Of a stretch of 64,000 nt of DNA, positions 6,538 to 6,802 are shown in pieces; position 1 is the first letter of the stretch; each line of letters starts with the position of its first letter. This stretch comes from Sulfurimonas crateris (lineage in GTDB: Bacteria; Campylobacterota; Campylobacteria; Campylobacterales; Sulfurimonadaceae). The notes beneath the pieces are model-generated. The model saw nothing but the letters and a program-made list of their open reading frames with translations. It had not been told where the DNA came from and made no database searches. Location of the stretch: assembly GCF_005217605.1 (NCBI RefSeq), contig NZ_SZPX01000008.1, positions 1-64,000 of the forward strand, in the 5' to 3' direction. The position numbers and the translations under genes were made by a program.

Positions 6538-6599
6538 GTAACACTTCTGTAACCTCTCAGTAATTAGTCTGTAACAAATTTTATGCAAAATGCTATTAT
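6538..6599 (+). promoter_or_regulatory. Pho-box-like array of four 11-bp repeats plus extended -10
   Basis: GTAAC/GTAAT begins at 6538, 6549, 6560 and 6571, an exact 11-bp period, with TCT or TCA closing most units. A TGC-TATTAT extended -10 lies at 6591-6599, 12 bp after the last unit. This spacing, with repeats in place of a -35, is the layout of promoters activated by PhoB-type response regulators. The regulator itself is not in the window. Confidence 0.6.
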
Positions 6600-6622
6600 A
6601 AAATTTGTCGCAGGAGGCACAA

Positions 6623-6802
6623 GTGCCAGCTTTTACAATATCGATAATAAACTACCTTGCTAAATACTACTATATAAACTCTGATGAAGCCAAAGAGATG
6701 GTCAATGATGAGTGGGACTACATAGAACAAGAGTATATCAACGGAAGCAACACCCCAAAAGATATCGCTAAATATCTGATCTCTTTATATATGGTGGCGT
6801 AA
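6623..6802 (+). CDS. 59-aa conserved-looking small protein upstream of acyltransferase
   Basis: A small protein of unknown function, tyrosine-rich and acidic, predicted helical and soluble (NYLAKYYYINSDEAKEM, then DEWDYIEQEYINGS). GTG at 6623 is chosen because a perfect AGGAGG lies 5 nt upstream; the in-frame TTG at 6605 has no ribosome site and would sit at the predicted transcription start. The stop is one base before the ATG of the acyltransferase gene, so the two are co-translated. I do not recognise a family. Its position suggests an accessory role in the lipid pathway. Confidence 0.6.
   Translation: MPAFTISIINYLAKYYYINSDEAKEMVNDEWDYIEQEYINGSNTPKDIAKYLISLYMVA

Follow-up and report, generated by a model that had tools for sequence, protein, structure and literature searches.

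When is the ornithine lipid synthase gene of Sulfurimonas crateris transcribed, and which regulator would act on the repeats that precede it? The window analysed here (the whole 64,000-nt stretch of contig NZ_SZPX01000008.1) contains a run of GTAAC/GTAAT words upstream of this gene, which the initial annotation had interpreted as a PhoB-type activator site replacing the -35 element. All four words are present with a spacing of exactly 11 bp (Table 1), as it had described, and a search with the four-word pattern tolerating up to three mismatches returned this single match in the window, compared with a mean of 0.04 in shuffled sequences. Where a Pho box takes at least two direct repeats at 11 bp, the array has four units, conserved in relatives. 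As judged from the sequence evidence below, the array is almost certainly a PhoB/PhosR-type Pho box of a Campylobacterota type, driving a 59-aa open reading frame (ORF) together with olsF.

The annotation had also proposed an OlsF-like fusion protein, and this identity held. The 571-aa product matched the OlsF equivalog model NF052615 over residues 3-569 with 776.3 bits (cut-off 620), and it unites two acyltransferase domains in one chain, the N-terminal PF19576 (residues 23-266) and the C-terminal GNAT-type PF13444 (residues 326-427). Its closest named relatives are from Sulfurimonas sp. MAGs, at no more than 91% identity.

Table 1. Features of the olsF promoter region and of the genes that follow it (positions in the window).
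Feature	Position	Strand	Basis or remark
Array of four 11-bp units, almost certainly a Pho box	6538..6581	+	GTAAC 6538, GTAAC 6549, GTAAT 6560, GTAAC 6571
Most likely -10 hexamer, CAAAAT	6586..6591	+	10 nt after the last GTAAC word
Extended -10 of the initial annotation, TGCTATTAT, possible alternative	6591..6599	+	Present in 1/24 promoters, that of the window itself
AGGAGG, likely ribosome binding site of the 59-aa ORF	6612..6617	+	Sequence
59-aa ORF, GTG start, first gene of the presumed transcript	6623..6802	+	Conserved, predicted four-helix
olsF, bifunctional ornithine lipid synthase, 571 aa	6804..8519	+	NCBIfam NF052615

Conservation of the array upstream of olsF

OlsF is present in more than half of the 200 genomes of the family, and the conservation of the array was assessed in about 420 bp upstream of each of 90 olsF genes, 83 of them non-redundant. 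On the coding strand of these 83 sequences, pairs of GTAAY words were spaced by 11 bp 105 times, by 22 bp 61 times and by 33 bp 24 times, and each distance other than a multiple of 11 was represented by at most three pairs; the reverse strand contained one 11-bp pair. A phased pair was found in 55 of the 83 upstream regions, a count that never exceeded 2 of 83 in 200 shuffled sets. The bases between the words vary among species, and the array can therefore be regarded as a phylogenetic footprint. It accompanies both the OlsF type of the window and a divergent type (approximately 45-50% identity), and the words of relatives include GTTAY or GAAAY besides GTAAY. In named Sulfurospirillum genomes, for example, the box is GTTAY-N6-GTAAY, and a hexamer resembling TATAAT comes after a gap of 10 nt; the olsF promoter of another relative (G097) reads GTAAC-N6-GAAAT-N10-TATAAT.

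None of a further 15 OlsF copies, for the most part second paralogues, had a phased GTAAY pair upstream. Chance has to be considered for such short words. GTAAY pairs at 11 bp do arise at random (20 matches in the 2.2-Mb genome, compared with 10 for the reversed pattern), and the repeats might be an accidental run of A/T-rich words or a non-functional remnant. However, chance would not be expected to bring three or four words into phase, and dozens of species have retained the array ahead of olsF. The spacing spectra, the shuffles, the reverse strand and the array-less second paralogues rule out a chance origin of the array, and we consider the probability of this explanation as a whole to be negligible.

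A second OlsF, of approximately 40% identity and without the phased array, occurs in many relatives (L248-L262), and its regulation must differ. In several cases the copy lies in an open frame longer than 700 aa, and these genes are often located behind a gene whose end resembles an RND-type transporter.

The same box before phosphorus-acquisition genes

The recurrence of the box in the 2.2-Mb genome was evaluated by pattern searches and in targeted stretches. Only two places in it carry three GTAAY words in 11-bp phase: one precedes olsF, and the other lies directly before pstC of the pstCAB-phoU operon. Three of the 20 two-word matches are at olsF and four at the pst locus, where they include sites upstream of pstS and of an adjacent porin gene. 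A pattern combining two words and the shared 10-nt gap with a -10 hexamer (GTNAY-N6-GNRAY-N10-YANAAT) matched at six sites in the genome, compared with one for the reversed pattern: olsF, pstC, pstS, an outer-membrane porin, a PhoB-like regulator and a phnDCE-type phosphonate-uptake operon. The matches at the first five are not independent, since the pattern was drawn from them; the phosphonate operon was the sole site not used and provides an independent match. Its genes are arranged as GntR-porin-PhnD-PhnC-PhnE, and the box precedes them by some 40 bp. PstS, PstC, PhnE and PhnC passed curated cut-offs, and PhnD passed a subfamily model only. The initial annotation had suggested a search for the repeats at other phosphate genes of this genome and regarded their absence there as evidence against its interpretation; they are present before pstCAB-phoU, pstS and the phn operon.

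In the phosphonate operon (L244:275-5757), PhnE joins two permease domains in a tandem fusion, each corresponding to a stretch matched by TIGR01097.

Across the family, triple-word matches precede pstC, porins, olsF and long permeases, which we take from the appearance of their sequences to be PiT/PHO4-like phosphate transporters, and a few precede genes without known function. In 150 genomes of the phylum, the two-word box with its -10 hexamer was matched 81 times, compared with 18 for the reversed pattern (sums over the tabulated genomes), and at those of the inspected loci where a reference gene could be recognised, the gene behind the match was pstC, pstS, phoU or a porin gene. Most of the sampled families were enriched in the GTAAY box; the enrichment was absent from four families of the phylum sample (f2, f3, f5 and f6), which suggests that the sequence of the Pho box changed within the phylum.

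To identify a regulator that might bind the array, seven of the 19 OmpR/PhoB-class regulators of the genome were scanned against protein family models. The highest PhoB score among the seven was that of the regulator at G000:C5:98940-99611, whose top model was PhoB TIGR02154 (190.9 bits, below the equivalog cut-off of 296.2). It is followed by a 464-aa ORF that looks like its kinase partner, and its own promoter carries a degenerate box, GTAAT-N6-GAGAC-N10-TACAAT. Among the promoters of its orthologues, several close ones have a similar degenerate box, two diverged ones have a complete box with the 10-nt gap, and others have none, a distribution that would fit autoregulation in part. This regulator is the best candidate for binding the array.

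The large number of OmpR/PhoB-class regulators also leaves room for a different member of the family, responding to envelope stress, salinity or redox state, to bind the array and merely to overlap with phosphate genes. PhoB-family proteins in general bind 11-bp direct repeats. Moreover, one OlsF of Vibrio cholerae responds to salinity and not to phosphate (PMC12186959). Nevertheless, the box precedes pst, pstS, phn, porins and the PhoB-like regulator itself, is found again at pst in other families of the phylum, and is lacking from olsF paralogues that form a separate set; control by such a regulator is therefore quite improbable, and a phosphate-responsive PhoB/PhosR-type regulator is the reading that we follow below.

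Two near-identical GTAAC-N6-GTAAC repeats located 7.6 kb apart (G000:C1:97705 and C1:105304; near position 1501 of L004 and L005) include one that closely precedes an ORF resembling an integrase. The pair is more suggestive of arm sites for the recombinase of an integrated element than of Pho boxes.

The -10 element and the small ORF before olsF

When the 24 promoters of olsF genes of the window's own type were aligned on their last word in a simple register, 21 of them had CANAAT 10 nt after that word, and the remaining three fitted if a degenerate last unit was allowed. The first position of the hexamer, C, is conserved. The same 10-nt gap between the last word and the -10 hexamer is found at the pstC, pstS, porin, phn and phoB-like promoters, and in Escherichia coli about 10 nt separate the Pho box from the -10 element of phoA and pstS. 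This gap, at the six genomic sites and at 21 of the 24 olsF promoters, argues for the PhoB-type geometry in which the box would take the place of a -35 element, as originally proposed.

The position that the initial annotation gave to the -10 was not supported. The extended -10 that it had recognised, TGCTATTAT, was found among the 24 promoters in the window only, and it was rejected as the main promoter element for this lack of conservation. Because CANAAT is conserved 10 nt after the array while TGCTATTAT is confined to the window, CAAAAT is the more likely -10. The earlier interpretation thus stands in its central part, a Pho-box promoter before olsF, with regard to the array, the regulon and the identity of OlsF, and is revised in the placement of the -10.

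It is nonetheless conceivable that the array is a Pho box acting from farther upstream, and that transcription starts from a downstream -10, either TGCTATTAT or TATAAA (6597-6602). The extended -10 does exist in the window, and an A/T-rich hexamer occupies the later place in 12 of the 24 relatives, but neither feature compares with the near-constant CANAAT (all 24 promoters, with the degenerate unit allowed) or with the use of the 10-nt gap by the pst, porin, phn and phoB-like promoters. We regard a downstream start as rather unlikely. With CAAAAT as the -10, a weak hexamer with a conserved C in first position sits behind four activator units, which suggests that the olsF promoter would be nearly silent without its activator.

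The first gene of the presumed transcript encodes a protein of 59 aa, and olsF begins 1 nt after it; translational coupling of the two is possible. The frame and length of this ORF are kept upstream of own-type olsF (31 sequences), and it is under purifying selection (pN 0.06-0.22, pS 0.42-0.80; eight pairs). It was detected in 32 of the 200 family genomes, with a single exception immediately ahead of olsF and almost always beside an olsF of the own type, and is missing at a few own-type olsF genes. AlphaFold2 predicted four helices with a mean pLDDT of 91. Searches of Pfam, NCBIfam and PDB sequences gave no significant relative of the protein, and a Foldseek search with the model gave nothing at E ≤ 0.001. 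VIA-align returned only middling scores (highest Z 6.8), and the domains that it matched were small, helical and unrelated, among them a bacteriocin and RuvA domain III; for this reason no function was assigned from the fold.

The association of the two genes raises the tentative suggestion, which we hold to be possible though somewhat less than probable, that the 59-aa protein is a dedicated partner of OlsF, for example an adaptor through which the synthase is tuned or supplied with its substrate. If so, the phosphate-starvation switch would act on a lipid synthase of two parts and not on OlsF alone. The small protein is undescribed and the most novel part of the locus, and offers a new, easily deleted candidate for an OlsF partner.

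A putative phosphate-starvation switch in free-living Campylobacterota

From the combined genomic evidence, we consider it very probable that a PhoB/PhosR-type Pho box switches on the small protein and OlsF during phosphate starvation, with ornithine lipid replacing phospholipid. When phosphate is scarce, a response regulator of this type, for which the C5 protein is the best candidate, would be phosphorylated and would fill the four 11-bp units head-to-tail, one molecule per unit, replacing the -35 contact. The bound regulator would recruit RNA polymerase to the suboptimal -10, and the resulting transcript would yield the small helical protein and then OlsF, whose product is expected to be a phosphorus-free ornithine lipid that substitutes for phospholipid. 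The pst, phn and porin genes would be raised by the same regulator through their own boxes, increasing the uptake of phosphate and phosphonate. It is predicted from the protein families involved that the C5 regulator binds the array, that olsF is induced at low phosphate and that Sulfurimonas crateris produces the lipid.

This mechanism is plausible in view of three other bacteria. In V. cholerae, transcription of olsF (VC0489) at low phosphate requires PhoB, and PhoB controls just one of the two OlsF copies, according to PMC12186959 (and Barbosa 2018, cited therein). The system resembles the present one in its OlsF-type synthase and in a second copy free of phosphate control, comparable to the box-less second paralogues here; it differs in belonging to another phylum, whereas the locus described here has four GTAAY units, a conserved 59-aa ORF before olsF and a regulation deduced from sequence. 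In Desulfovibrio alaskensis G20, also of another phylum, olsF is needed for full fitness at low phosphate, and ornithine lipid rises from less than 1% to nearly 20%; a Pho box for this olsF is not given in the available part of PMC5193443. In Sulfurimonas gotlandica, ornithine lipid makes up 40% of the lipid, and was reported in the accessible portion of PMC9789136 to vary with species and electron acceptor, not phosphate. Phosphate would offer a testable second reading of this high proportion beside species and electron acceptor.

The sequence of the box can be compared with those of two known systems. The PhosR box of Campylobacter jejuni is probably a GTTTC-type repeat; the words here are GTAAY, and those of relatives include GTTAY or GAAAY. 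The phosphate-responsive two-component system PhosS/PhosR of that bacterium, which belongs to the same phylum, controls pst genes (Wosten 2006, as cited in PMC9449129 and PMC3197622). PhoB of E. coli binds head-to-tail on 11-bp direct repeats, with the box in place of the -35 (reviewed in PMC4415409); the core there is the GTCAY part of CTGTCAT, as opposed to GTAAY here, where olsF has four units and a CAAAAT -10. We found no Pho box of the present sequence described for Campylobacterota in the open-access literature. PhoB control of OlsF is already known in Vibrio; novelty lies in the Campylobacterota box and in the small protein.

Free-living Campylobacterota contribute greatly to sulfur oxidation in aquifers, vents and redoxclines, and the GTAAY-N6 repeats with 10 nt to the -10 provide a sequence definition of their putative Pho regulon. 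These organisms are predicted to exchange phospholipid for ornithine lipid under phosphate scarcity.

Triple GTAAY boxes also precede the gene of an exported protein of about 250 aa with a coiled-coil-like start, which was encountered in different genera (L063, L068 and L283); this protein is a possible, previously unrecognised member of the Pho regulon.
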